Assembly (NCBI GenBank): GCA_025352065.1
Contig: JANXUC010000014.1
Coordinates: 1-50,345 of the forward strand
Source of the DNA: Acidobacteriaceae bacterium
GTDB lineage: Bacteria; Acidobacteriota; Terriglobia; Terriglobales; Acidobacteriaceae
Length of the DNA: 50,345 nt
Reading direction: 5' to 3'
Part shown: piece after piece, positions 6,487-24,379 of the stretch
How the letters are laid out: each line of letters begins with the position of its first letter
Numbering within the stretch: the stretch's first letter is position 1
Position numbers and translations under genes: made by a program
The notes under the pieces: model-generated
What the model was told of the DNA's origin: nothing
The model's input: the letters and a program-made list of their open reading frames with translations, nothing else
Database searches by the model: none

Positions 6487-7344
6487 CTATGGAACATCCG
6501 CGACAATACAAATATCGTGCGCGTTTGCCATTTCGGGAATCGCAGCGCCATCCAACAGCAAACACTTGCCCGCATCCACCGCCAGACACGACGCTCCCGC
6601 CAACCGCATTGCTTCAATTGTCTTCTGCCCAATTACCGGCACGTCAAAGCGCATATCCTGATTCGGCTTCGCCACCTTGACCACGGTCAGTGCCCGGCTC
6701 AACGTAGATGCCTCGCCAGTGGCCTCCAGGGTGGCCATGAGGCGTCCGGCGCGTTCGATGGTCGCGTCCGTCCCCTCCATCGCCTCGACAGCCACACAGG
6801 CCGCCTCGGCGATCACAACGGTTTGCCCAATGTCGTACTGTGCCAAATGGCGGGCAGCAGCGCGGCCGTAAGCAATATTCTTCAACTCCTGCTCAGTAGG
6901 AGCGCGCCGAGTAAGCACCCCCGGCTTCGCTAGCAGAGGTTCCAGCAGCGAGGTCGAACTCTCCAAAACAATGCCTTCGTCGCCCAGCACTTTCGCCACC
7001 GCTCCCAGCAGCGCGTCGGTGTTGCGTGTGGCCAAGGAAAGCAACAACTTAGCCAGCCGCCAGTCCGGACGAATGCTGGAAAAAATCTGTTTATGCTTCA
7101 CCTGCCCCGCCATCACGGCGCGGGTCACTCCCTCTTTGTGGAAAGTCTCGATCAGTTTGGAAAGCTCTCCGAGCGAGAGCCAGTGCACAGCCGCCGCGCC
7201 ATGCGATTCAATGTCGGCAGAAGCCTCTTCCTTGATCGCCGCCACGACTACCTCAAATCCCTGTGCGCGAGCCGCATCAAGTACCAGCAGAGGAAAGCGA
7301 CCGTTCCCGGCGATGAGCCCGAGACGCTTCGACGTGGAAGACAT
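6487..7344 (-). CDS. lpxI: UDP-2,3-diacylglucosamine pyrophosphatase LpxI
   Basis: A 285-residue lipid A enzyme (family formerly DUF1009) that hydrolyses UDP-2,3-diacylglucosamine to lipid X and UMP, the alternative to LpxH. Recognisable features are the N-terminal GLIAGNGRFPLLVLDAAR, the central MAGQVKH and the C-terminal KPNQDMRFDVPVIG and GKCLLLD segments. In many Gram-negatives lpxI follows lpxA in one operon; here a micropeptide gene and a toxin-antitoxin pair lie between them. The length matches the family. LpxI indicates a lipid A-bearing outer membrane. Confidence 0.93.
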   Translation of the reverse strand: MSSTSKRLGLIAGNGRFPLLVLDAARAQGFEVVVAAIKEEASADIESHGAAAVHWLSLGELSKLIETFHKEGVTRAVMAGQVKHKQIFSSIRPDWRLAKLLLSLATRNTDALLGAVAKVLGDEGIVLESSTSLLEPLLAKPGVLTRRAPTEQELKNIAYGRAAARHLAQYDIGQTVVIAEAACVAVEAMEGTDATIERAGRLMATLEATGEASTLSRALTVVKVAKPNQDMRFDVPVIGQKTIEAMRLAGASCLAVDAGKCLLLDGAAIPEMANAHDICIVADVP

Positions 7345-7372
7345 GCGGCTAAGTGTAAACCAGACAGGAGCA

Positions 7373-7394
7373 AGGCGGGCATTTCTGCCCGCCT
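7373..7394. terminator. GC-rich hairpin between lpxI and the micropeptide gene
   Basis: AGGCGGGC (7373-7380) and GCCCGCCT (7387-7394) form a perfect 8-bp stem with a 6-nt loop. There is only a short T stretch on the plus side and none on the minus side, so it is a weak terminator candidate or an RNA processing/stability element downstream of the peptide gene. Confidence 0.4.
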
Positions 7395-7487
7395 CTTTCG
7401 GGGGGAGGAAAACTTGGTGTAAGTGTTTCTACCGCGCTACTTTAGCGGACGATAAGCACGCGTCTCAACGGCGCGACGATCAGGAAC

Positions 7488-7538
7488 TTAGTTGCCCCAA
7501 ACGGCGACGCCAGCTTTGGTGTTCGTTTTAATCTTCAT
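7488..7538 (-). CDS. 16-residue peptide gene
   Basis: ATG 7538 opens a complete frame for MKIKTNTKAGVAVWGN, ending TAA at 7488. AAGGAG lies 7 nt upstream, an ideal ribosome binding site, so translation is likely. The peptide has a basic leader-like half (KIKTNTKAG) and a short hydrophobic end (VAVWGN). This layout is compatible with a very short modified-peptide precursor or a regulatory leader, but no modification enzyme lies next to it. A hairpin (7373-7394) lies downstream, before lpxI. Function unknown; the call rests on the Shine-Dalgarno and complete frame only. Confidence 0.45.
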   Translation of the reverse strand: MKIKTNTKAGVAVWGN

Positions 7539-7752
7539 GATGTGGCTCCTTGGCTCAGATTTCGTTCCCGCTTACGTAAAAGATAAATGCATGGCAGTCG
7601 CCAAACTGCGATGCAGCATTCTCTCTGCGTATCTCATTGAAAAGACAACTCGGGAACGAATCTAAAGAAACGCTAATGCACGACTGGAATCCGAAAACCC
7701 TAACTTCGATGCGGGATTGCCCAACAAAAATGTTAGGTAGCAACTCGCCAGT

Positions 7753-8037
7753 CTAGCCGTAAACCAACTCAATCCTCACCCGGCGTCCCACAATCGCCGC
7801 AGCCCGCTGCAAGCTGGAGAGGGTGATGTCATTCTTAGCGTCCAGCAACCGGTCCACCTGCGTCCGGCTTGTCTTCAGCAGAGCGGCCATGCGTGTTTTA
7901 GAGATTTTCTTTTTCTTCATGGCCTCGGCAAGTTGCCATGCCACAACTTCTTTCACAGCTTGGGCCTGTGCTTCGTCAAAGATGCCCTCGTCCTTCAGAA
8001 AGTCATCGATGCTGGAACCCATGTGTTTCTTGCTCAT
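7753..8037 (-). CDS. HigA-like antitoxin with helix-turn-helix
   Basis: A 94-residue antitoxin with a C-terminal helix-turn-helix of the XRE/HigA type (about residues 42-85): KKKKISKTRMAALLKTSRTQ then RLLDAKNDITLSSLQRAA, followed by the beta-strand RRVRIELVYG. Its start codon overlaps the toxin stop by 4 nt (8034-8037), so translation is coupled. By analogy with HigBA it should neutralise the toxin and repress the promoter, where a perfect 18-bp palindrome sits. The toxin-first order is typical of HigBA systems. Confidence 0.87.
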   Translation of the reverse strand: MSKKHMGSSIDDFLKDEGIFDEAQAQAVKEVVAWQLAEAMKKKKISKTRMAALLKTSRTQVDRLLDAKNDITLSSLQRAAAIVGRRVRIELVYG

Positions 8038-8390
8038 CGCCCCAACTCCTTCTGACGCTTCCGTGCCATCCCCAAATCTTCAGTGGGTGTGGTGCGCGTT
8101 TTCTTAATGAATCCGTGCAACGCAATCAAGTGCTCGCGGTGAAGACAAAGAAGCACGCGCGCGGTGCGCTTCGTTGGCAGGTCCGTACGCACTTCCCACA
8201 AGCCGCTTCCCAACGGACGACAGAGGGGCATGCCCACGGGCCAGCGCCATTGCGCTCGCAACAGGTCCTGGCCAATTCTGTGGCGTTCCGCTTCCGGTAG
8301 GTCTTTCAGCCACTCGCGCACTGGTTCGCTTCCCGACAACGTTCGGAAGAAGACAAGCGCGATCTTCTGAGGCTGAGCATTCTCCGGCAT
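8034..8390 (-). CDS. HigB/Gp49-type toxin (RelE superfamily)
   Basis: A 118-residue toxin of the phage-derived Gp49/HigB group, RelE fold. Landmarks are the N-terminal LVFFRTLSGSEPVREWLKDL, the central RPLGSGLWEVRTDLP, the strand TARVLLCLHREHLIALHGFIKKT, and a C-terminal helix ending MARKRQKELGR. Members of the fold are ribosome-dependent mRNA endonucleases; activity is inferred here. The gene precedes its antitoxin, and their 4-nt overlap supports the pairing. Together with the micropeptide gene, the pair separates lpxA from lpxI. Confidence 0.87.
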   Translation of the reverse strand: MPENAQPQKIALVFFRTLSGSEPVREWLKDLPEAERHRIGQDLLRAQWRWPVGMPLCRPLGSGLWEVRTDLPTKRTARVLLCLHREHLIALHGFIKKTRTTPTEDLGMARKRQKELGR

Positions 8391-8412
8391 GAATGCACAT
8401 CATATGAAAGAG

Positions 8413-8430
8413 TGTACTTTATAAAGTACA
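8413..8430. promoter_or_regulatory. Palindromic operator of the toxin-antitoxin pair
   Basis: TGTACTTTATAAAGTACA is a perfect 18-bp palindrome whose near edge is 22 nt upstream of the toxin start. On the minus strand it contains TATAAA, usable as a -10, with TAGACT as a candidate -35 about 18 nt further upstream. An antitoxin dimer bound here would cover the -10, which fits autorepression. Confidence 0.7.
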
Positions 8431-8459
8431 TTAAAGCAAATAGTCTACAAAGGCCCAAT

Positions 8460-9236
8460 CTACTTAATCACGCCGCGCTCCGAAGCCTCAATGAAGCGTA
8501 TGAGCATGGCCACATCTTCGCCGCTATCTGGTTCAGCCTTAAGCTTTTCCAGCGCTTGCGAGGTGTTCAGCTTCGACGCCAGCAGGACTCTATATGCGTG
8601 ATGAATCTTCTGCACACGCTCTTTGCTGAAGCCGCGGCGCTCCAGGCCTACTGCGTTGATTCCATAGGCATGCGTATCGCGAGCGGCCGCCGATTTTGAA
8701 AACGGCAGCACATCCCGCGTGATCGTAGTCCCGCCGCCGATGTAGGAGTGCGCACCAATTCGCACGAACTGGTGCACGGGGCACAGCGCTCCAACCACGG
8801 CCCACTCTTCGACGGTGACGTGTCCTCCCAGAGTAGCGGCGTTGGCCAGGATGACGTGGTCGCCAATCTCGCAGTCGTGCGCGATGTGCGTGTAGGCCAT
8901 GATCAAAACATGGCTGCCGACGCGAGTTACTCCGCGTCCTCTGACCGTGCCGCGATTGATGCTGACAAACTCTCGAATCTCATTGTTATCACCAACTTCG
9001 AGACGAGTCGGCTCTCCGGCGTAGCTCATGTCTTGCGGTGCCATTCCCAGCGATGTGAATGGGAAAACTTTTACGTTCTTGCCAATCCGCGTGGGGCCTT
9101 CAATGTGAACATTCGAAACGAGATGGCAGCCCTCGCCCAGCTCGACATCGGGGCCAACGATGCAATAGGGTCCAATCTTGCACGACTCGGCAACGCAGGC
9201 CCGAGGATCAATGATGGCGGTGGGATGAATAGGCAT
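8460..9236 (-). CDS. lpxA: UDP-N-acetylglucosamine acyltransferase LpxA
   Basis: A 258-residue enzyme for the first step of lipid A synthesis: transfer of a 3-hydroxyacyl chain from ACP to UDP-GlcNAc. Hexapeptide repeats of a left-handed beta-helix fill the first two thirds. The catalytic His lies in AYTHIAHDCEIGDHV, and HQFVRIGAHSYIGGG is conserved. ATG 9236 gives the family N-terminus MPIHPTAIIDPRA and lies 14 nt after the fabZ stop. The frame stays open upstream, but that part overlaps fabZ and is not LpxA-like. Length equals that of well-studied LpxA. Confidence 0.96.
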   Translation of the reverse strand: MPIHPTAIIDPRACVAESCKIGPYCIVGPDVELGEGCHLVSNVHIEGPTRIGKNVKVFPFTSLGMAPQDMSYAGEPTRLEVGDNNEIREFVSINRGTVRGRGVTRVGSHVLIMAYTHIAHDCEIGDHVILANAATLGGHVTVEEWAVVGALCPVHQFVRIGAHSYIGGGTTITRDVLPFSKSAAARDTHAYGINAVGLERRGFSKERVQKIHHAYRVLLASKLNTSQALEKLKAEPDSGEDVAMLIRFIEASERGVIK

Positions 9237-9250
9237 CGAAGGTTCGAAAC

Positions 9251-9769
9251 TTACTCCGCAGCTCCGGGCGACATCGCCTTCCTCGGCACCACTCGGCAGG
9301 TAATCGTCGCCTCCGCCACGCGCTTGCCTGCGACAAACGCTCTGCCTTCCATACGCACGGCCGTCTCGCGCCACGCTTTGACCTCGACCTCGATGCGCAA
9401 CTGATCTCCCGGCACCACGGGTCGACGAAAGCGCGCCCGCTCAATTCCTGTGAAGACCATCAACTTGCTGTCGCGATCGGCAATTTCAGTGAGCAGCAAA
9501 GCGCCTCCGGCCTGCGCCATGGCTTCCACCATAAGCACTCCGGGCATGATCGGAAATTCCGGAAAATGACCCTGAAAGTAGGGTTCGTTGATGGTCACGT
9601 TCTTCAGCGCGACGATCCGTTCCTTCCGCTTCAGCTCGACCACCCGGTCGATGAGCAGGAAGGGATAGCGGTGCGGCAGAATCTTCATTAAGTCGTTGAT
9701 GTCCATCACGGTGACGTCGGCTGCGGCAGGCGCGGGAGTTTCAACAGCGGTTTGTGTTGTCTCAGTCAT
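9251..9769 (-). CDS. fabZ: 3-hydroxyacyl-ACP dehydratase FabZ
   Basis: A 172-residue hot-dog-fold dehydratase of fatty acid synthesis. The catalytic His is in LPHRYPFLLIDRV and the catalytic Glu in MPGVLMVEAMAQ, with YFQGHFPEFP between them. I choose ATG 9769 (MTETTQTAVE) over an upstream start at 9919. An Ala/Pro/Thr-rich tail of about 20 residues precedes the domain. fabZ and lpxA, 14 nt apart, form an operon balancing fatty acid and lipid A synthesis, as in many Gram-negatives. Confidence 0.95.
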   Translation of the reverse strand: MTETTQTAVETPAPAAADVTVMDINDLMKILPHRYPFLLIDRVVELKRKERIVALKNVTINEPYFQGHFPEFPIMPGVLMVEAMAQAGGALLLTEIADRDSKLMVFTGIERARFRRPVVPGDQLRIEVEVKAWRETAVRMEGRAFVAGKRVAEATITCRVVPRKAMSPGAAE

Positions 9770-9853
9770 CCTTAGCTCTTCAAGAGCGAGATTATACTGG
9801 ATGCCGCGCGTCGGAGGCAGATTTTTCAGCCACTTACGCCGGGACTTATCTGG

Positions 9854-11047
9854 ATGAAGATAACGAAAAAAGCAATTCAAGGCCCCATGGCCGAGTACCT
9901 GAAGCACTTTGAGGCTCACCGCGATGCGCTCGTCGAGACCATCCGTCAGTTGGTTGAGATGGAGTCACCCAGCGACAACAAGGCTGCCGTCGACAAGCTC
10001 GGCCAATGGCTGGGCGCGCGATTTGAGAAGCTTGGCGGCAAGGTAACCTTCCACGGGCAGAAAAAGTTTGGCGATCATCTGCAAGCTGATTTTCCTGCGA
10101 AGACAGGAGTGCCCAAAGCGAAACCAATTCTGCTGCTGGGCCATTTCGATACCGTCTACGAACTGGGAGCGCTGGCGAAGATGCCTTGCAAGCTGGAGAG
10201 TGGTCGCCTGTATGGGCCGGGCGTGTTCGATATGAAGTCGGGCATTGCGTTCATGCTGCATGCGATTGAGGCGCTGCAAACTTTGCAAGGAGGGCTGCCG
10301 AGATCGGTGCGCGTGCTGCTAGTCACCGATGAAGAAGTGGGCAGCGATTCCTCACGGGCGATCACGGAGCGGCTGGCGAAGCAAAGTTCCGCCGTTTTTG
10401 TTCTAGAACCATCCGCCGGGCCCAAGGGCGCGCTGAAGACGGCCCGCAAAGGGGTGGGAGAATATACGGTTCGCGTGACTGGCCAGGCTTCGCACGCGGG
10501 GCTCGATCCATTCAAAGGCCAGAGTGCCATTGTCGAACTGGCGCACCAGATCACGCGTATCTCTGAATTGAACAAACAGGAATTCGGTGAGCCGAAGCGA
10601 GGACTTACCCTGAACGTCGGCATCATTCGCGGAGGCACCCGCACCAACGTGATTGCCGCCGAAGCCAGTGCCGATGTTGATGTTCGCGTCGAACGTCTGA
10701 GCGACGCCGCGAAGATTGATCGCAAGATGCGCGCGCTCAAGCCCGTCAACCGCAAATGCAAGCTGGAAATTACGGGAGGTCTGAATCGCCCTCCGATGGA
10801 ACGCAGCGCAGGCGCGGACGCGCTCTTCGCCAAGGCGGAGCGGCTTGCGCTGGAGATTGGATGGAAGCTGAAAGAGACCGCAGTCGGCGGCGGATCGGAT
10901 GGAAACTTTACCGCCGCGCTTGGGATTCCGACGCTCGATGGCCTCGGCGCGGTAGGCGATGGAGCGCACGCGTCACACGAACATGTGTTGATCGAAGCGC
11001 TGCCGCGAAGGGCGGCGCTGATTGCCGGATTACTGGCGGAGGGTTAA
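9854..11047 (+). CDS. M20-family metallopeptidase (glutamate carboxypeptidase type)
   Basis: A 397-residue two-zinc amidohydrolase/peptidase like Pseudomonas carboxypeptidase G2. Metal and catalytic motifs appear in order: LLGHFDTV (His and catalytic Asp), GPGVFDMKSG (bridging Asp), VTDEEVGS (catalytic Glu pair), and a late His in ASHEH. ASHAGLDPFKGQSAI belongs to the dimerisation lid domain. No signal peptide is seen. The start is uncertain: ATG 9854 has little Shine-Dalgarno signal, while ATG 9887 (MAEYLKHF) has AAGG close by. It is divergent from fabZ across an 84-bp gap. The substrate is not predictable. Confidence 0.9.
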   Translation: MKITKKAIQGPMAEYLKHFEAHRDALVETIRQLVEMESPSDNKAAVDKLGQWLGARFEKLGGKVTFHGQKKFGDHLQADFPAKTGVPKAKPILLLGHFDTVYELGALAKMPCKLESGRLYGPGVFDMKSGIAFMLHAIEALQTLQGGLPRSVRVLLVTDEEVGSDSSRAITERLAKQSSAVFVLEPSAGPKGALKTARKGVGEYTVRVTGQASHAGLDPFKGQSAIVELAHQITRISELNKQEFGEPKRGLTLNVGIIRGGTRTNVIAAEASADVDVRVERLSDAAKIDRKMRALKPVNRKCKLEITGGLNRPPMERSAGADALFAKAERLALEIGWKLKETAVGGGSDGNFTAALGIPTLDGLGAVGDGAHASHEHVLIEALPRRAALIAGLLAEG

Positions 11048-12404: not shown

Positions 12405-14249
12405 TTGGCGGAGGCTATGCAACAGCAAACTAGCGTGAACCCTGCAACGGAAAACCTGAATCTGGATTACGGCGCCCTACTGGCGGCCAGCCGGCGTCTG
12501 GACCCCGCGAAAACCAGTCGAAAAATGAAGATTGCGCTGCTTTCCGATGCGGCCACGCAGAGGTTTGTTCCGGTTCTGCGGGTGTTGTTCCATCGTCAGG
12601 GAGTGGACGCTGAGATTTACGAGGCGCCTTTCGACGGGCTAGAGCTCGAGATCTACAACCCGGCGTCGGGGATTTATCAATTCAAGCCGGATTTTGTTGT
12701 GGTGTTGAATTCGGTGCAGGCCCTGCGTGCGAACTTTCTAAAGCGGACGGGTGATTCTGTTTCTTTTACGGAAGAAACAATTGCTCGGATGATGAAGATT
12801 TGGGATGGCATCCACTCGCATTTAACGGCGACCGTGATTCAGAGCAACTTTGTTCTCCCTTACGAGCGTTTTTTCGGCAATTTCGATCACAAAACGCCGG
12901 AGTCGTTTTATGCGACGGTGGGGAGCATCAACTCGAAGTTGGTGGAAGCTTCGCGATTGCGCGGCGGGGTTCTGATCAACGATGTTGAAAGCGTGGCTTC
13001 CTGGCTGGGCCGGCGCGTGTGGTTTGAGGAGCGCTTTTGGGACAGCGCAAAGTATTTTTGCGCATTGGAATGCCTGCCTTATGTGGGGAAAAATATTGTC
13101 GATGTTGTGATGGCTGGCTTGGGGCGCGTGGTGAAATGTGTTGTTCTTGATTTGGATAACACGCTTTGGGGCGGCGTGATTGGCGATGACGGAATCGAAG
13201 GCATCCAACTGAGCGAGCACGGGGAGGGCGAAGCGTTTTACCGCTTCCAGCTCTACTTGCGCGAGCTGCGACGGCGCGGAGTGTTGTTAGCGGTTTGCAG
13301 CAAGAACGAGAAGGCGAATGCGCTGCTGCCGTTTGAAAGACATCCGGAGATGGTTTTGAAGCTAGAAGATATTGCGATGTTCGTGGCGAACTGGAACGAC
13401 AAGGCCGACAACATTCGGCAGATTCGTGAAACCTTGAATATCGGCATCGATTCCATGGTTTTTCTGGATGACAATCCGTTTGAGCGCAATCTTGTGCGGG
13501 AGTTGGTGCCCGGTATTACTGTGCCGGAGTTGCCGGAAGACCCTGCGGACTACGTGCGCGCTATTTCGGAATTGAACCTGTTTGAGACGACTTCGTTTTC
13601 CGCGGAAGACAGTAAGCGGACGGAGATGTACCGTGCAGAGTCGCAGCGGAGGGAGGAGCAGGCAGGCTTCGCATCGGTCGATGAATTTTTGCAATCGCTA
13701 GAGATGCGGATGACGGTGGCGCGATTTGATTCGTTCCATTTGCCGCGAATCGCGCAACTGATGCAGCGCAGCAACCAATTTAATGTGACCACGCGTCGTC
13801 TTTCGGAAGTGGAATGTAAAGTCTTGATGGAAGATGAGCGCTGGTTCCCGCTCTATGCCAAGTTGACGGACCGCCTCAGCGATCACGGGCTAATTGCGGT
13901 AGTGACGCTGGAGGAGCGCGAAGATAGCCTTGCCATCCGAGACTGGCTGATGAGCTGCCGTGTGCTTGTGCGCGGCGTGGAACAGTTTTTGATGAATCGA
14001 GCGGTAGAACACGCGAAAAAACTGGAACTTGCGCGCATCACAGCGGAGTTTATTTCGACTGCCAAGAACGGCATGGTCAAAGATTTCTTTCAGCAGTTTG
14101 GGTTTGCTAAAGTTGAGGAAGATGGCGACGGGCGTTCGCTTTGGGTTCTGGAGACGGGCACCTACCAGCCGGCGCGTACATTTATTCGGCCAGCGGTCGA
14201 GGCTATAGCATCGAGTGTCTCTGGAACAGCCACGCTGTCTGCCAAGTAG
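12405..14249 (+). CDS. FkbH-like HAD-superfamily protein (predicted glyceryl-ACP loading enzyme)
   Basis: A 614-residue FkbH-like protein. An N-terminal domain (about 40-240) precedes the HAD core with VVLDLDNTLWGGVIGDDG (nucleophile Asp249, general acid Asp251), LAVCSKNE, and VFLDDNPFERNLVRE. A GNAT-like C-terminal domain (about 430-590) includes FISTAKNGMVKDFFQQFGF. Known FkbH enzymes take 1,3-bisphosphoglycerate, remove phosphate and place a glyceryl group as a thioester on an acyl carrier protein. An ACP gene follows 44 nt downstream, which supports that role. No polyketide synthase is in view, unlike in antibiotic clusters. The start is uncertain between TTG 12405 and ATG 12417, where GGAGG is only 2 nt from the ATG. 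First gene of a four-gene operon. Confidence 0.88.
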   Translation: MAEAMQQQTSVNPATENLNLDYGALLAASRRLDPAKTSRKMKIALLSDAATQRFVPVLRVLFHRQGVDAEIYEAPFDGLELEIYNPASGIYQFKPDFVVVLNSVQALRANFLKRTGDSVSFTEETIARMMKIWDGIHSHLTATVIQSNFVLPYERFFGNFDHKTPESFYATVGSINSKLVEASRLRGGVLINDVESVASWLGRRVWFEERFWDSAKYFCALECLPYVGKNIVDVVMAGLGRVVKCVVLDLDNTLWGGVIGDDGIEGIQLSEHGEGEAFYRFQLYLRELRRRGVLLAVCSKNEKANALLPFERHPEMVLKLEDIAMFVANWNDKADNIRQIRETLNIGIDSMVFLDDNPFERNLVRELVPGITVPELPEDPADYVRAISELNLFETTSFSAEDSKRTEMYRAESQRREEQAGFASVDEFLQSLEMRMTVARFDSFHLPRIAQLMQRSNQFNVTTRRLSEVECKVLMEDERWFPLYAKLTDRLSDHGLIAVVTLEEREDSLAIRDWLMSCRVLVRGVEQFLMNRAVEHAKKLELARITAEFISTAKNGMVKDFFQQFGFAKVEEDGDGRSLWVLETGTYQPARTFIRPAVEAIASSVSGTATLSAK

Positions 14250-14293
14250 ACCGTCTGCTAAGTAGATCGAGCACGCCAAGGAGATTGTTCCGA

Positions 14294-14554
14294 ATGCAAA
14301 GTGCGGGCAATGCCGAGATCATGGAGACGTTGACCGGAGTTTTTCGCGAGATTTTTGACTCTCCCGGCCTGGTCCTGCATGACGCCATGACCGCCACTGA
14401 TGTCGAGAACTGGGATTCGCTCAACCACATCGACCTGATTGTGGCGATTGAAAAGAAGTTTAAGGTGAAGTTCACCACTCGGGAGGTCGCTTCGCTCAAG
14501 ACGGTTGGCGAACTGGCGGGGTTGATCCAGCAAAAGTTGGTTGCCAAACCTTGA
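14294..14554 (+). CDS. Acyl carrier protein
   Basis: An 86-residue ACP. Ser42 in WDSLNHIDLIVAIEKKF is the phosphopantetheine attachment site, and the four-helix pattern fits the family (for example VASLKTVGELAGLIQQKL as the last helix). ATG 14294 is chosen because AAGGAG lies about 9 nt upstream. The frame continues upstream into the end of fkbH and lacks ACP character there. Its stop overlaps the TTG start of the MBOAT gene by 4 nt (TTGA), so the two proteins are made together. It is therefore a dedicated carrier for the MBOAT enzyme, as DltC is for DltB, rather than the fatty-acid ACP. Confidence 0.92.
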   Translation: MQSAGNAEIMETLTGVFREIFDSPGLVLHDAMTATDVENWDSLNHIDLIVAIEKKFKVKFTTREVASLKTVGELAGLIQQKLVAKP

Positions 14555-15987
14555 TCTTTACATCTTTCAATTTCCTCCTTTTGTTGCCGCTGGTTGTGGC
14601 CCTTTACCACATTGTGCCGCTGCGCGGACGAAGTCTCTATTTGTTAGTCGTCTCCTATGCCTTTTATTGGATATGGAGTCCGGGCGCGGCAGCAGTCTTG
14701 GCTGCGGTTACATCGCTGACTTTCTATGCTGGCAAAGTCGTGGGAGATCCTACGGCGGAACGGCGTGGCCGCGTGGTTTTTCTGTATGCGATTGGGCTGC
14801 TCATTCTCTATCTGGCGATCTTCAAGATAGCGGCTGCTACTTCACTGGGACGAACGGTTGGAATTGCGTTGCCGCTTGGCCTTTCTTACTACACCTTTAA
14901 GTTGATGAGTTACATCATTGACATCTATTGGGGAAAGATTCAGCCTGCTACGAATCGAATCGACTTTGCAGTCGCTATCGCGTTTTTTCCGCAACTTACC
15001 GCTGGACCCATCCAACGGCCCGCCGATTTTCTACCTCAAGTCCCACCGCCGAGGACGATGGTTTGGCAAGGACTGTCGCGCATGGTTTGGGGACTCGCCA
15101 AGAAGATGCTGATTGCAGATAACCTTGCCCCGACAGTGAACTACGTGTATGCCCATATCGGTGGTTCTCAAGTGGGAGGACTTCACGGCGCCGCCTTACT
15201 GGCAGGTTTTTATCTCTTTCCGCTGCAGCTATATGCGGATTTTTCCGCACTGACTGACATTGCCCTCGGTATGGGTATGATGTTCGGGATTCAAGGGCCG
15301 GAGAACTTCAATCGTCCTTTCACTGCTTCCAGCATTAGTGACTTCTGGTCTCGCTGGCACATGTCTCTGACTAGCTGGCTGGCCGACTATGTCTTTACGC
15401 CGCTTCGCATGACGACGCGCTCCTTAGGAACGCTGGGACTGGTACTCAGCCTTTCCCTGAACATGGTTGCTATCGGTATTTGGCACGGACTGACTTGGGG
15501 CTATCTTGCATTTGGGTTAGTGAACGCCGCGTACTTTGTCGCCGACGCGCTGACTGCGCGCAATCGTGTGAAATTCTTCAAGACGCGCCCAAACTTGACT
15601 CGCTTGGGCAATTGGATGGGATGGTTGCTCACCTTTCATCTTGTGCTGCTTGGGCTTGTTTTTTTCCGAGCGCATACCGTCTCGGATGCAACTTGGTTAC
15701 TCTCTCATGCGCTAGGGGGGCTAGCGCATGCCAAAGCTGACGTCTCGCACTTACTGGCTGCGACGGGAGCGAAAGTCCTTTTGGTGGGATTGGCAGGCTA
15801 TGCTGCGCTCGAATTGGCGGAGCGCCTGCGTCCTGATCAATGGTGGCTGAGTTTCGAACTTACTGCCCCGACTTGGCTGCGATTGTCTCTCCAGTTTGTC
15901 ACGGGAGCCTTCATTGCCGTGGCATGGGTACTGCTTACGATCCGATCTGGCAACCACGCCAGCCCGTTCTTATATCAGGTGTTTTAG
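14551..15987 (+). CDS. MBOAT-family membrane O-acyltransferase (AlgI/DltB-like)
   Basis: A 478-residue multi-pass membrane acyltransferase. It carries the family's conserved signatures: PLGLSYYTFKLMSYIIDIY, FFPQLTAGPIQRP, SDFWSRWHMSLTSWL (about 263-277) and the catalytic His312 in IWHGLTWG. Such enzymes move an acyl group from a donor in or at the membrane to an extracytoplasmic polymer. The TTG start at 14551 overlaps the ACP stop; using TTG is supported by the normal family N-terminus (F-x-S-x-x-F-L-L-L-L-P). Its direct coupling to an ACP gene is like dltB-dltC and unlike alginate algI, which uses no carrier protein. The transferred group is probably what FkbH loads. Confidence 0.92.
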   Translation: MIFTSFNFLLLLPLVVALYHIVPLRGRSLYLLVVSYAFYWIWSPGAAAVLAAVTSLTFYAGKVVGDPTAERRGRVVFLYAIGLLILYLAIFKIAAATSLGRTVGIALPLGLSYYTFKLMSYIIDIYWGKIQPATNRIDFAVAIAFFPQLTAGPIQRPADFLPQVPPPRTMVWQGLSRMVWGLAKKMLIADNLAPTVNYVYAHIGGSQVGGLHGAALLAGFYLFPLQLYADFSALTDIALGMGMMFGIQGPENFNRPFTASSISDFWSRWHMSLTSWLADYVFTPLRMTTRSLGTLGLVLSLSLNMVAIGIWHGLTWGYLAFGLVNAAYFVADALTARNRVKFFKTRPNLTRLGNWMGWLLTFHLVLLGLVFFRAHTVSDATWLLSHALGGLAHAKADVSHLLAATGAKVLLVGLAGYAALELAERLRPDQWWLSFELTAPTWLRLSLQFVTGAFIAVAWVLLTIRSGNHASPFLYQVF

Positions 15988-16025
15988 ATGGAGACCACGG
16001 CCATAGATCGAGTGGAGCAGTTCTC

Positions 16026-17195
16026 ATGACAATCAATTGGAGGAAGGTCGCGAGTTACGTTGGTTCAGTACTCGCAATTACATTTGGCTGGCTGCTCTAC
16101 GTCGAATCTGTGTGTTTTGTTCGACTCTGGGCGGCGGATCCGGGGACGGACTTAATTCCGCGCGATCGCCTAAGACAGGTTTACAACAATGCGGATTGGG
16201 TAGACGCTTTTGCCGATGAGTGGAAGCCTTCCAACGTATTTGCCTACAAGGCCTATGTTGGTTGGGAGCGCAAACCGTTTAAAGGACGTGCCATTAACAT
16301 CAATGAGGTGAACATGCGCGTAAGTGCGCACTCCCATTGCGACAGTGACGCATACACAATATGGATGTTCGGTGGTTCGACGGTTTGGGGCGCCGGGACG
16401 CCGGATTGGTCAACTATTCCTTCCCAGTTAGCGGACATGTATGGGCAAGATGGACGTAAAGTTTGCATCCACAACTATGGTCAGCAAGCTTGGGTCAATA
16501 GTCAGGAAGTAGTCAAGCTGACTCTTGAACTTAAAGCGAGCGAGCGCAAGCCGGACTTAGTCATTTTTTACGATGGACCGGGAGATGTCTACGAAACTTA
16601 CCAGTCCGGCAAGGCAGGATTGCACCAAAATTTTGACTCTATGGCGAGTATGTTTGAACGAAGAACCTCCGCTGGTAGCGGCGGCTTTCAGTACCTGCTC
16701 AACACGAACACAGCGAGGATACTGATGCAGAGCAACCAACAAGCTCGCATGGACTCGCGAAAAGATCCCAACATCATTGCACAGGCGTCGTTGCGGAATT
16801 ACATGGACAACGTTCGTTTTGTGCAGATACTGGCGAGAGGGTATGGGTTCGAACCCGCCTTCTTTTGGCAGCCTACCATCTCGATGGGCCACAAGAGCCT
16901 GACTCCGGAGGAGCAGGCTGCCCGGGATGCGGCGAGTAAGCATTCGCCTGGCTTGGAGGAGGCCAATCAGGCCGCCTACACATTATTCGCGAGTGACTGT
17001 AAGGCGCCGTTGTTCTGTATTGTGGATGTGTTTGATCAGGCTAACGGCACCATCTACTTCGACGACGCGCATGTAGACGCAGAAGGCAATCGCCTGATCG
17101 CAAAGAAAATGTACCAGGCGCTGCATCGTCAGCCAGATGCCGCGCGTAGCATGGCGTCCACGAGCGCTATGGGCAGCCCTACTACGTTGAAGTAA
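16026..17195 (+). CDS. Membrane-anchored SGNH-hydrolase-like protein
   Basis: A 389-residue protein with one N-terminal span (about residues 11-30) and an extracytoplasmic SGNH-type domain. Block I is MFGGSTVWGAG (nucleophile Ser118), followed by HNYGQQAWVNSQE. Block III, normally GxND, reads DGPGDV, so the Asn is replaced. Block V is DDAHVDAEGN, with Asp346 and His349 as the remaining triad. DltD, AlgJ/AlgX and PatB-like partners of MBOAT enzymes have this fold. The gene follows the MBOAT gene by 38 nt. ATG 16026 is chosen for the signal-anchor; the frame is open further upstream but overlaps the MBOAT gene. Its last 67 nt overlap the convergent maf gene. Confidence 0.85.
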   Translation: MTINWRKVASYVGSVLAITFGWLLYVESVCFVRLWAADPGTDLIPRDRLRQVYNNADWVDAFADEWKPSNVFAYKAYVGWERKPFKGRAININEVNMRVSAHSHCDSDAYTIWMFGGSTVWGAGTPDWSTIPSQLADMYGQDGRKVCIHNYGQQAWVNSQEVVKLTLELKASERKPDLVIFYDGPGDVYETYQSGKAGLHQNFDSMASMFERRTSAGSGGFQYLLNTNTARILMQSNQQARMDSRKDPNIIAQASLRNYMDNVRFVQILARGYGFEPAFFWQPTISMGHKSLTPEEQAARDAASKHSPGLEEANQAAYTLFASDCKAPLFCIVDVFDQANGTIYFDDAHVDAEGNRLIAKKMYQALHRQPDAARSMASTSAMGSPTTLK

Positions 17196-17710: not shown

Positions 17711-18079
17711 CTAAGCGCTCACCAATTCGATCCGATTTCCGAAGGGATCGAAGATGTGACAGCGCGGAGAGTCGTTGAGAGTTCCGGCGTCCACGACTTC
17801 AACTCCAGCAGATCGCAAGCTTGTAACGAGCCCGTTATAGTTCTGACAAAGGAACGCAGGATGCGCTTTCTTAGCGGCGCGAAAATTCGCTTCCACTCCA
17901 AGATGAATTCTGGCAGGGCCGCTCTCGAACCACGCTCCGCCGAGGTCCGCCAGCTCAGCCGGTTTGGGAACTTCCACCAGCCCAAGCAGCCCTATGTAGA
18001 ATTTGCGAGCCTTGTCCTCTTCGCCCGGAGGCATCGCTAACTGGACGTGGTCAATGGCAGTGAACGGCATCTCGCTCAT
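17711..18079 (-). CDS. VOC-superfamily (glyoxalase-like) protein
   Basis: A 122-residue protein of the vicinal-oxygen-chelate fold. It shows the paired beta-alpha-beta-beta-beta units: IDHVQLAMPPG...FYIGLLGL, then FLCQNYNGLVTSLRSAG and CHIFDPFGNRIELV. The likely metal ligands are the His of IDHVQ, the His of IHLGV and the Glu of RIELV. The family covers glyoxalases, dioxygenases and resistance proteins, and the substrate cannot be inferred. It is the first gene of a two-gene unit with maf, 3 nt apart. Confidence 0.88.
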   Translation of the reverse strand: MSEMPFTAIDHVQLAMPPGEEDKARKFYIGLLGLVEVPKPAELADLGGAWFESGPARIHLGVEANFRAAKKAHPAFLCQNYNGLVTSLRSAGVEVVDAGTLNDSPRCHIFDPFGNRIELVSA

Positions 18080-23376: not shown

Positions 23377-23874
23377 CTATTTGTGCCCTCGTTGAACTTC
23401 CCGCCTTGCTCCAAACAGCCGTTTATCCCACCGAACGGGCGTTGGTTTCGTTGCTGTGATCCGGGGAAAATCCGGATGCCGTTGATGAATGAGAACGTTG
23501 CGTTCGATCCCGCCACTCGGCACGGAAGGAACCAATAACACGACGCTCCGCATTTCTTCATACCATTGGCCTCCCCAAGCGCGGCTCGCTTCGCCATCGG
23601 GGTCGTCCCAATCGGGAAGCACTTCGGGGTGGAGTTCCTCGATCAGAACATTTGCCGGGATGTGAATCTGGATCGATGCGAACCCCTTCGGCACGCGGCC
23701 AAGATTGCTATGAACCAGAATCTCGAGCAGCGCCCCCGCGTAGGAAGTCGCGCCGTAAATGACATACTGCCCCTTCCGATTCCATCGCGCCCCGTGCAGA
23801 GCGCCGGTTCCGTCGAATAGAGGATGAATCGCACGCGCAATGCGCGTGACTTCGAGGGGAGCAGCAGCTCGCAT
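23377..23874 (-). CDS. RES-domain toxin
   Basis: A 165-residue toxin of the RES family. Known members degrade NAD+ or ADP-ribosylate targets and are paired with Xre/MbcA-type antitoxins. The signature ARAIHPLFDGTGALHGARWN is followed by VIYGATSYAGALLEILVH; this carries the conserved Arg, Tyr and Glu positions of the fold. It starts 6 nt after the antitoxin stop. The domain fills almost the whole protein, as usual. Toxicity is inferred from the family. Confidence 0.88.
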   Translation of the reverse strand: MRAAAPLEVTRIARAIHPLFDGTGALHGARWNRKGQYVIYGATSYAGALLEILVHSNLGRVPKGFASIQIHIPANVLIEELHPEVLPDWDDPDGEASRAWGGQWYEEMRSVVLLVPSVPSGGIERNVLIHQRHPDFPRITATKPTPVRWDKRLFGARREVQRGHK

Positions 23875-23880
23875 TTCGCT

Positions 23881-24315
23881 CTAAACCGGCAACCCATATT
23901 CCAACTTGTCGAGCACTTGCTCCACCCGACGCGCTCCGAGCTCGGTCAACGCGGATTCGATCGGAGTCCGCCCACCAAGCTCAGGATGCGGTTGGGTGAG
24001 CCACTCGCGAGCATCCTCGCGGTCGTCCCAAACCATTTCCGCCGAGGCAATAACGCGTGCCAGCCGTTCCGTCCGCTCACTCTCCGCCGGACGGAGCCGC
24101 GAAACGCGCCGCTTGAACGTAGCCTGCGGCACGATGCGATAGAGAATCCGGTTACGCTCGCTGGCGACGGCAAAAACACGCTGTAGCGCGCGGCGGAGAG
24201 CCGCTTTCGGAATACCCCCTTCGACGAGATCCTCCAGGTCGCTAGCCGAGCGCACCTCGCGGCCGAGAACCGCGACACCGCCGAGAACCTCCGCTATTAA
24301 AGAAGCTTGCACCAT
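23881..24315 (-). CDS. Xre/MbcA-ParS-type antitoxin of the RES toxin
   Basis: An antitoxin of about 144 residues with the architecture of RES partners. An N-terminal helix-turn-helix-like part is followed by a C-terminal toxin-binding domain with AEMVWDDREDAREWLTQPHP, ELGGRTPIESALTELGARRV and VLDKLEYGLPV, the hallmark of that domain. Start: ATG 24315 has GGAGG 4 nt upstream (GTG 24312 is also possible). The ATGATG at 24331-24336 lies at the -10 box and cannot be used. The antitoxin-first order fits the family. Confidence 0.87.
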   Translation of the reverse strand: MVQASLIAEVLGGVAVLGREVRSASDLEDLVEGGIPKAALRRALQRVFAVASERNRILYRIVPQATFKRRVSRLRPAESERTERLARVIASAEMVWDDREDAREWLTQPHPELGGRTPIESALTELGARRVEQVLDKLEYGLPV

Positions 24316-24334
24316 AGAGCCTCCGAATAGCATC

Positions 24335-24379
24335 ATTATATACCGTATTGTTGTCCAATTGATGCTTATACCAATAAGC
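24335..24379 (-). promoter_or_regulatory. Promoter and dyad of the Xre/RES pair
   Basis: On the minus strand TATAAT (24340-24335) is a perfect -10 box about 20 nt before the antitoxin start. GCTTAT-ACCA-ATAAGC (24364-24379) is a perfect inverted repeat just upstream and is the likely operator. The -35 box is poor, as is common for autoregulated promoters. Confidence 0.6.

Follow-up and report, generated by a model that had tools for sequence, protein, structure and literature searches.

In the Dlt system, which D-alanylates teichoic acids, the AMP-forming enzyme DltA loads a discrete carrier protein, DltC, and the acyl group is handed on to the MBOAT acyltransferase DltB and its SGNH-type partner DltD. 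MBOAT proteins also bring acyl groups across the membrane in the O-acetylation of polysaccharides and peptidoglycan by the AlgI-AlgX, PatA-PatB, and WssH systems, where AlgX and PatB are the separate SGNH proteins (PMC9558356). Discrete carriers are loaded by another type of enzyme in tetronate and methoxymalonyl pathways, where an FkbH-type protein is paired with an acyl carrier protein (ACP) of ~80 residues, as for Tmn16, Mad7/Mad8, and AbyA2/AbyA3 (622 and 78 residues, respectively; PMC3625739). Transfer of a glyceryl group from 1,3-bisphosphoglycerate to discrete ACPs by FkbH homologues is stated or proposed in passages of PMC3625739 and PMC7489565, the former describing it in vitro for the homologue Tmn16 with D-1,3-bisphosphoglycerate. 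Here we analyze a stretch of 50,345 nucleotides from an Acidobacteriaceae bacterium (assembly GCA_025352065.1, contig JANXUC010000014.1; hereafter the window), in which an FkbH-type loader, an ACP, a DltB-like MBOAT, and a membrane-anchored SGNH-like protein are encoded side by side on one strand. The gene set, its intact active sites, and its recurrence and co-inheritance as a unit are supported by the data, and the best explanation, which we hold to be reasonably probable, is an acyl relay from loader to carrier to MBOAT to SGNH protein with a glyceryl group as its cargo.

The original prediction, made from the sequence of the window, had recognized four same-strand genes of these families, and all four are confirmed as open reading frames (ORFs), with families assigned by Pfam and NCBIfam or by a profile. 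The loader (positions 12405–14249, + strand; 614 residues) comprises an FkbH_N and an FkbH (HAD-type) domain and starts at TTG 12405, with an alternative in-frame ATG at 12417. It scores well above the cut-offs of Pfam FkbH_N (PF21211; 105.6 bits, cut-off 27) and NCBIfam TIGR01686 (311.7 bits, cut-off 146.65), is also over that of TIGR01681, matches the solved protein BF1531 (PDB 3slr; E = 2.4e-90, residues 38–400), and is the only FkbH over the cut-off in this 4.25-Mb, 98.5% complete genome. Residues D249, D251, S299, K333, D355, D356, and C518 are invariant in 140 aligned rows (136 FkbH rows and four FkbH domains fused to carrier-like or nonribosomal peptide synthetase (NRPS)-like sequence), and R519, Q458, R465, and D489 likewise never vary. 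The invariant catalytic residues say that the window FkbH should retain the chemistry of its family, with the conserved SCR cysteine, C518, as the candidate for bearing the acyl group.

After a gap of 44 nucleotides follows the ACP (14294–14554, + strand; 86 residues), whose best start, ATG 14294, is preceded by AAGGAG; ATG 14321 would be an alternative giving a shorter protein. It exceeds the cut-off of Pfam PP-binding (27.4 bits, cut-off 20.8) and contains the motif WDSLNH. Its best PDB match, 2lml, which we take to be the entry of GmACP3 from Geobacter metallireducens, is a putative ACP with WDSLSH, so both share WDSLxH. The MBOAT (14551–15987, + strand; 478 residues) starts at TTG 14551 and thereby overlaps the ACP stop at 14554 by 4 nucleotides, as had been predicted. 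It scores 65.3 bits with Pfam MBOAT (cut-off 27), matches DltB in the PDB with E = 1.9e-28, and is the sole PF03062 match in the genome. Its AlphaFold model has a mean predicted local distance difference test (pLDDT) score of 89.4 and finds DltB as the top structural match, with template modeling scores of 0.65/0.74, and neither H270 nor H312 varies across 42 aligned rows (the window MBOAT and 41 of 47 listed MBOATs).

The fourth gene, 38 nucleotides downstream, encodes the putative SGNH/GDSL-like protein P0004 (16026–17195, + strand; 389 residues), which has a single N-terminal hydrophobic stretch. SGNH enzymes are characterized by blocks I, II, III, and V, contributing Ser, Gly, Asn, and His. 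On its own P0004 has no Pfam or NCBIfam match at E ≤ 0.001; Lipase_GDSL_2 is found at E ≤ 1 in 10 of 13 members of its family, and the best PDB match of the family profile is CgnD (8a2n, E = 2.3e-13). S118, G152, and D346/H349 of P0004 are conserved; the family keeps Ser, Gly, and His throughout and the block V Asp in most members. Of the five MBOAT-adjacent members, four have another residue in place of the block III Asn (G in the window, L in locus L007, T in L197, and S in L198); the Asn is present in the fifth, L065, and in all eight members with no MBOAT seen nearby. In this small sample, loss of the Asn may mark a transferase role.

In the mechanism that we propose, 1,3-bisphosphoglycerate would supply FkbH with a C3 acyl group, which the enzyme would free of the remaining phosphate and attach to the 4'-phosphopantetheine arm of the ACP. 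The resulting glyceryl-S-ACP would meet the DltB-like MBOAT at the cytoplasmic side, and the MBOAT would take over the group and convey it across the inner membrane. There the membrane-anchored SGNH protein would finish the transfer to an acceptor outside the cytoplasm, for which a hydroxyl of a surface glycan is the most likely candidate. We are most confident of the first step, and consider it very likely that this ACP is charged by FkbH. By analogy with DltC-DltB, the MBOAT would accept the acyl group from the ACP, a step in which we have good confidence. Characterized FkbH enzymes point to glyceryl, or a derivative of it, as the loaded group, which we regard as likely, though a little less so than the hand-over. 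We infer the last step and the acceptor: completion of the transfer outside the cell by the SGNH protein is probable, and for the acceptor a surface glycan is mildly favored. As in the original interpretation, which overall is partly supported, the identity of the cargo and a surface glycan or lipid as acceptor are suggested by characterized FkbH enzymes and by gene context.

The locus resembles Dlt in having a loader, a discrete carrier, an MBOAT that shares the DltB fold and has two invariant His residues, and a putative SGNH-type partner. However, the loader is an FkbH instead of the AMP-forming DltA, whose model (TIGR01734) gives 18 matches in the genome, none over the cut-off, the strongest being in large frames on contigs C43, C154, and C11. 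The MBOAT, although of the same fold as DltB, reaches only 184.6 bits with TIGR04091 (cut-off 375), and the window proteins have no DltC or DltD family match: the seven NCBIfam matches of the ACP at E ≤ 0.001 are all to general ACP models, below their cut-offs, with no DltC model among them. Moreover, FkbH-type sets are present in Bacteroidota, Acidobacteriota, and other phyla. Membership in Dlt is therefore rejected, with DltA, DltC, the DltB cut-off, and DltD all unmatched; the window system works like Dlt with another loader, but is not a Dlt system. The parallel originally drawn with DltD stands for the role of an SGNH partner and fails for its identity, the family being GDSL-like and closest to CgnD. 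From the tetronate and methoxymalonyl FkbH-ACP pairs the locus differs in that the partner is an MBOAT and that neither a polyketide synthase (PKS) nor the tetronate/oxidation gene set is seen. In AlgI, PatA, and WssH systems, neither an FkbH nor a dedicated ACP is named in the passages of PMC9558356 concerned, whereas the window MBOAT follows an ACP.

FkbH neighborhoods were collected in two sets. The class set consists of 60 neighborhoods from 399 genomes of the class, 142 of which contain FkbH; they are mostly the best-scoring ones, picked down the match list with some close duplicates skipped, and near-identical ones such as L057 and L066 were kept. The named set consists of the best 80 of at least 568 confirmed FkbH candidates. 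Within 6 kb of FkbH, 21/60 class and 50/80 named loci have an MBOAT, and 47/60 and 69/80 have a same-strand ACP within 5 kb, compared with 2/40 and 0/40, respectively, near the centers of 40 control regions, whose positions in ten class genomes had been chosen in advance; both sets are biased toward relatives of the window FkbH and include near-identical members, so that the counts are not independent, and the controls, being from class genomes only, are unmatched to the named set. Among loci fully flanked by 7 kb on both sides (42 of the 60 class and 35 of the 80 named loci), an MBOAT is found in 18/42 class (Fisher p = 6e-5) and 24/35 named loci, and an ACP in 34/42 and 32/35. The association of FkbH, ACP, and MBOAT is far above chance. 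The motif WDSxxH occurs in 40/47 class and 60/69 named ACPs, and this recurrence suggests that the ACP type of 2lml often partners FkbH.

All three genes occur together in 67 loci. The order FkbH-ACP-MBOAT, part of the four-gene order for which a search had been proposed, is found in 45 of them, followed by MBOAT-FkbH-ACP (8), ACP-FkbH-MBOAT (6), and MBOAT-ACP-FkbH (1); the MBOAT is on the opposite strand in 7. The 46 named three-gene loci are spread over 10 named phyla and two unranked bacteria: Bacteroidota (22), Bacillota (9), Pseudomonadota (3), Acidobacteriota, Omnitrophota, and Planctomycetota (2 each), and Nitrospirota, Thermodesulfobacteriota, Spirochaetota, and Elusimicrobiota (1 each), where single loci may be misbinned because most records are titled metagenome-assembled genomes. 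Together with co-inheritance and intact catalytic residues, this recurrence across phyla lends good support to the predicted scheme of a non-DltA loader, a carrier, an MBOAT, and an SGNH protein.

Pairwise distances correlate between FkbH and MBOAT (0.76), FkbH and ACP (0.79), and ACP and MBOAT (0.64), with 0/999 permutations as high, although species ancestry contributes to these values and no control gene pair was included. In a tree of 93 MBOATs (70 of the 72 possible FkbH-linked rows, that is 71 loci plus the window before a length filter, and 23 others), the FkbH-link label needs 5 changes compared with 20.8 when shuffled. In the FkbH tree (136 rows, being 135 of the 140 loci plus the window, with 27 rows unlabeled and with the fused loci L095–L098 and one fragment of <400 residues left out), the MBOAT label needs 16 changes compared with 31.2, and the MBOAT association has therefore been gained or lost repeatedly. 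The window FkbH falls in a supported set of eight rows, itself included, seven of which have an MBOAT and one of which is unlabeled. The nearest MBOAT-carrying relatives of both the window FkbH and the window MBOAT are L100–L103, and the nearest named relatives of both proteins are from Acidobacteriota. An MBOAT is nearby in 11 of the first 12 named relatives listed, L107 having neither MBOAT nor ACP; in L104 the MBOAT and ACP are on the opposite strand. The closest FkbH relative overall, L040 (60% identity), has an ACP, and its contig ends 118 bases past that gene.

FkbH relatives are also found on 120 plasmid records, 40 of them from Sinorhizobium. In two strains of the plant symbiont Sinorhizobium meliloti, 2011 (locus L274 on pSymB; gene order read from a profile search) and RCAM1750, genes for a VOC protein, an MBOAT, a protein with SGNH-like motifs, an ACP, and FkbH stand in a row. 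The SGNH-like motifs were recognized by eye in a protein that is annotated as a TonB-dependent receptor in RCAM1750, and that matches no Pfam family and finds no credible counterpart in the PDB. A Rhodobacteraceae plasmid carries ACP, FkbH, MBOAT, a hypothetical protein, and VOC.

These results also bear on the possibility that a stand-alone FkbH-ACP pair merely happens to neighbor an MBOAT-SGNH pair of the AlgI/PatA kind that transfers acetyl groups and is unrelated to it. MBOATs are indeed mostly without an FkbH link: among 100 genomes searched for relatives (the window's own included), 23 have PF03062, with 37 matches in total, and the first 20 of the relatives' MBOAT loci show neither FkbH (0/20) nor a same-strand ACP (0/20); the window's own MBOAT and that of L069 (genome G033) are FkbH-linked. 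MBOAT-SGNH pairs without FkbH also occur in L007, L197, and L198. Chance neighbors would, however, hardly recur in 67 loci with the order fixed in 45, nor fit the distance correlations, the clustering of FkbH-linked MBOATs, and the 4-nucleotide ACP-MBOAT overlap, and we consider this explanation extremely improbable. Chance adjacency was rejected on the control regions, the label clustering in the MBOAT tree, and the distance correlations.

For the SGNH partner, a transmembrane-anchored SGNH-like ORF adjoins the MBOAT in 28 of 71 loci. The test behind this count is passed by 29/94 MBOAT-neighbor ORFs and 5/308 control ORFs, bearing in mind that neighbor ORFs may overlap each other whereas control ORFs were thinned to non-overlapping ones, that some contigs are cut, and that AlgX-like partners fail it; it supersedes a looser motif test without this control, which had counted 32/71. 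Partners of FkbH-linked MBOATs vary, being GDSL-like in the window and AlgX-like in L116, and small transmembrane-anchored proteins without a Pfam family occur as further partners (for example, in L131 and L127). Carbamoyltransferases adjoin some P0004-type proteins at loci without an MBOAT (L008 and L199, confirmed by Pfam, and L201, by eye).

The nature of the cargo is bound up with the genes around the relay. Other FkbH loci contain genes for a methyltransferase, a short-chain dehydrogenase/reductase (SDR), MaoC, a MaoC-SDR fusion, VOC, or a split transketolase, often between loader and MBOAT. The same relay might thus carry another small acyl group made from glyceryl-ACP, such as lactyl, O-methylglyceryl, or an oxidized C3 unit, by enzymes encoded elsewhere; the methyltransferase, SDR, MaoC, and VOC genes of FkbH-ACP-MBOAT loci and the split transketolase genes of L141 speak for it, as does the proposal in PMC7489565 that glyceryl-ACP is oxidized and methylated in the tetromadurin pathway. 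However, no methyltransferase, MaoC, SDR, or transketolase gene is seen beside the window operon; a glyoxalase-family VOC gene (17711–18079) is on the opposite strand, two genes away and seemingly unrelated. Unmodified glyceryl, the direct product of FkbH, is therefore the simplest cargo, and we regard a different one as rather unlikely. Split transketolase-like genes are a feature of Bacteroidota FkbH-ACP clusters in L141 (confirmed by Pfam) and L151 (by eye), and L116 has a pair resembling them (by eye).

Another alternative is that a small secreted molecule or a membrane lipid, instead of a surface polymer, is what the operon builds or modifies, and that the MBOAT and the SGNH protein act on that molecule. 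FkbH is classically a natural-product enzyme, MBOATs also acylate lipids, and lipid MBOAT structures are among the structural matches of the window protein. For a suomilide-type cluster, PMC13122637 puts forward that glycerate is loaded by an FkbH domain and that a hexose is acylated by a separate MBOAT, although that MBOAT is not said, in the passage concerned, to use the FkbH-loaded carrier. The literature naming both FkbH and MBOAT, in the parts covered, concerns NRPS products. NRPS-type frames do exist elsewhere in the genome; on contig C154 (L009), an NRPS cluster has an FkbH-like match split over a 3,578-residue frame and a separate 416-residue frame. Among the window ORFs scanned (not every ORF was), no PKS or NRPS family is present, and no ORF of the window exceeds 906 residues, which bears out the predicted absence of a nearby PKS; a secondary-metabolite cluster was rejected for the window on these grounds.

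Nor is such a cluster seen with the MBOAT loci among the 140 neighborhoods, as far as these were searched, although relatives within polyketide or secondary-metabolite clusters had been named as a possible refutation of the original reading. With one NRPS frame of the window's genome as query, the only matches in the 140 loci other than FkbH proteins are two adenylation-type ORFs, one in L133 and one in L174, loci that have no MBOAT, and in the class loci L095–L098 FkbH is fused to further NRPS- or carrier-like sequence, again with no MBOAT. The 30 large ORFs (≥900 residues) scanned near FkbH match families of outer-membrane proteins, transporters, helicases, and others, with no PKS or NRPS among the first 25 of their 110 families, a scan that did not extend to small stand-alone ketosynthases. 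Glycosyltransferase or Wzz genes, by contrast, lie near 18/42 fully flanked MBOAT loci, and we consider the small-molecule or lipid alternative improbable, slightly more so than a different cargo.

The same glycan genes make a surface glycan the likeliest acceptor. Using profiles for GT2, GT4, Wzz, VOC, and SGNH built from clusters named by eye, we found a glycosyltransferase or Wzz within 7 kb of FkbH in 8/18 class and 10/24 named MBOAT loci, versus 4/40 controls (p ~ 0.005 each). These genes are likewise frequent where FkbH has no MBOAT nearby (15/24 class, 6/11 named loci), and no glycan genes are seen beside the window island. Flagellar glycans of Campylobacter jejuni bear glyceric-acid groups. 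The flagellar glycosylation locus of that organism contains the FkbH-domain gene cj1302 (PMC7099621), an FkbH-domain gene within a surface-glycan locus, with no mention of an MBOAT or SGNH protein in the passages concerned. We recognized no description of an FkbH-ACP-MBOAT surface system in the open-licence literature, where other gene names were not covered.

Besides the sample bias, the class-only controls, and the contribution of ancestry given above, several observations weigh against the proposed glyceryl relay. FkbH-ACP pairs are not tied to an MBOAT, which is lacking from 24/42 fully flanked class loci and from an annotated Niveispirillum plasmid with FkbH, ACP, a WcbI-type acetyltransferase, and an SDR; because many pairs have no MBOAT nearby, FkbH-ACP has other uses. 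The cargo may differ between loci because of the tailoring enzymes in some of them, and 24/42 fully flanked MBOAT loci have no glycosyltransferase or Wzz within 7 kb. As to the SGNH component, 43/71 MBOAT loci have no transmembrane-anchored SGNH-like ORF by the test used, P0004-type proteins occur in only 17/399 class genomes, and they are found with an MBOAT but no FkbH in L007, L197, and L198, and also away from MBOATs, for which reason the P0004 type is not specific to this cargo. No loader is seen in L007 and L198; in L197, an AMP-binding enzyme (Pfam, 1.8e-42) lies alongside, at a contig end. Replacement of the block III Asn could mean an altered or weakened activity of P0004, and the AlphaFold model of this protein, from a three-row alignment, has a pLDDT of only 31.7. 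Finally, the island is bordered by housekeeping genes on both sides. As to the other uses of FkbH-ACP, pairs in L076, L078, L079, and L083 lie in NeuB/NeuC-type clusters (named by eye) that also encode a GNAT-like protein, and acylated nonulosonic acids may therefore be one of them.

Upstream of the island and on the opposite strand are lpxI, lpxA, and fabZ (6487–9919, − strand), whose proximity may be accidental. FkbH relatives from the same family of bacteria have at most 41% identity to the window FkbH, whereas 60% is reached in another family, and the GC content of the island is slightly lower (0.534 versus 0.558); both suggest that the island may have been acquired by horizontal transfer. 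The window also encodes a Gp49/HigB-like toxin (7753–8390, − strand; Pfam Gp49, 2.8e-16), which adjoins a small helix-turn-helix protein and likely forms a HigBA-type toxin-antitoxin pair with it, and a RES-domain toxin with an Xre/MbcA/ParS-type antitoxin (23377–24336, − strand).

Taken jointly, the data allow a broader reading, which we hold tentatively and rate just short of an even chance: FkbH-ACP-MBOAT-SGNH would be a general, phylum-spanning counterpart of Dlt to which 1,3-bisphosphoglycerate, an acyl phosphate of glycolysis, directly supplies both the acyl group and the energy of activation, and which attaches D-glycerate to envelope glycans as an ester. Outside secondary metabolism, this would be a main role of FkbH-ACP pairs that stand alone; tailoring enzymes would be exchanged to diversify the transferred group, and loaders on a common MBOAT-SGNH platform. 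If this is true, central glycolysis would be coupled to envelope decoration, and a function would be at hand for many genes in Bacteroidota, Bacillota, Acidobacteriota, and rhizobia whose sole label is 'HAD-IIIC family phosphatase', 'acyl carrier protein', or 'MBOAT family protein'. The predicted signature would be a glyceryl ester, +88 Da, for which known surface glycans could be screened, and since the genetically tractable S. meliloti 2011 has the same gene set, the idea would be directly testable.

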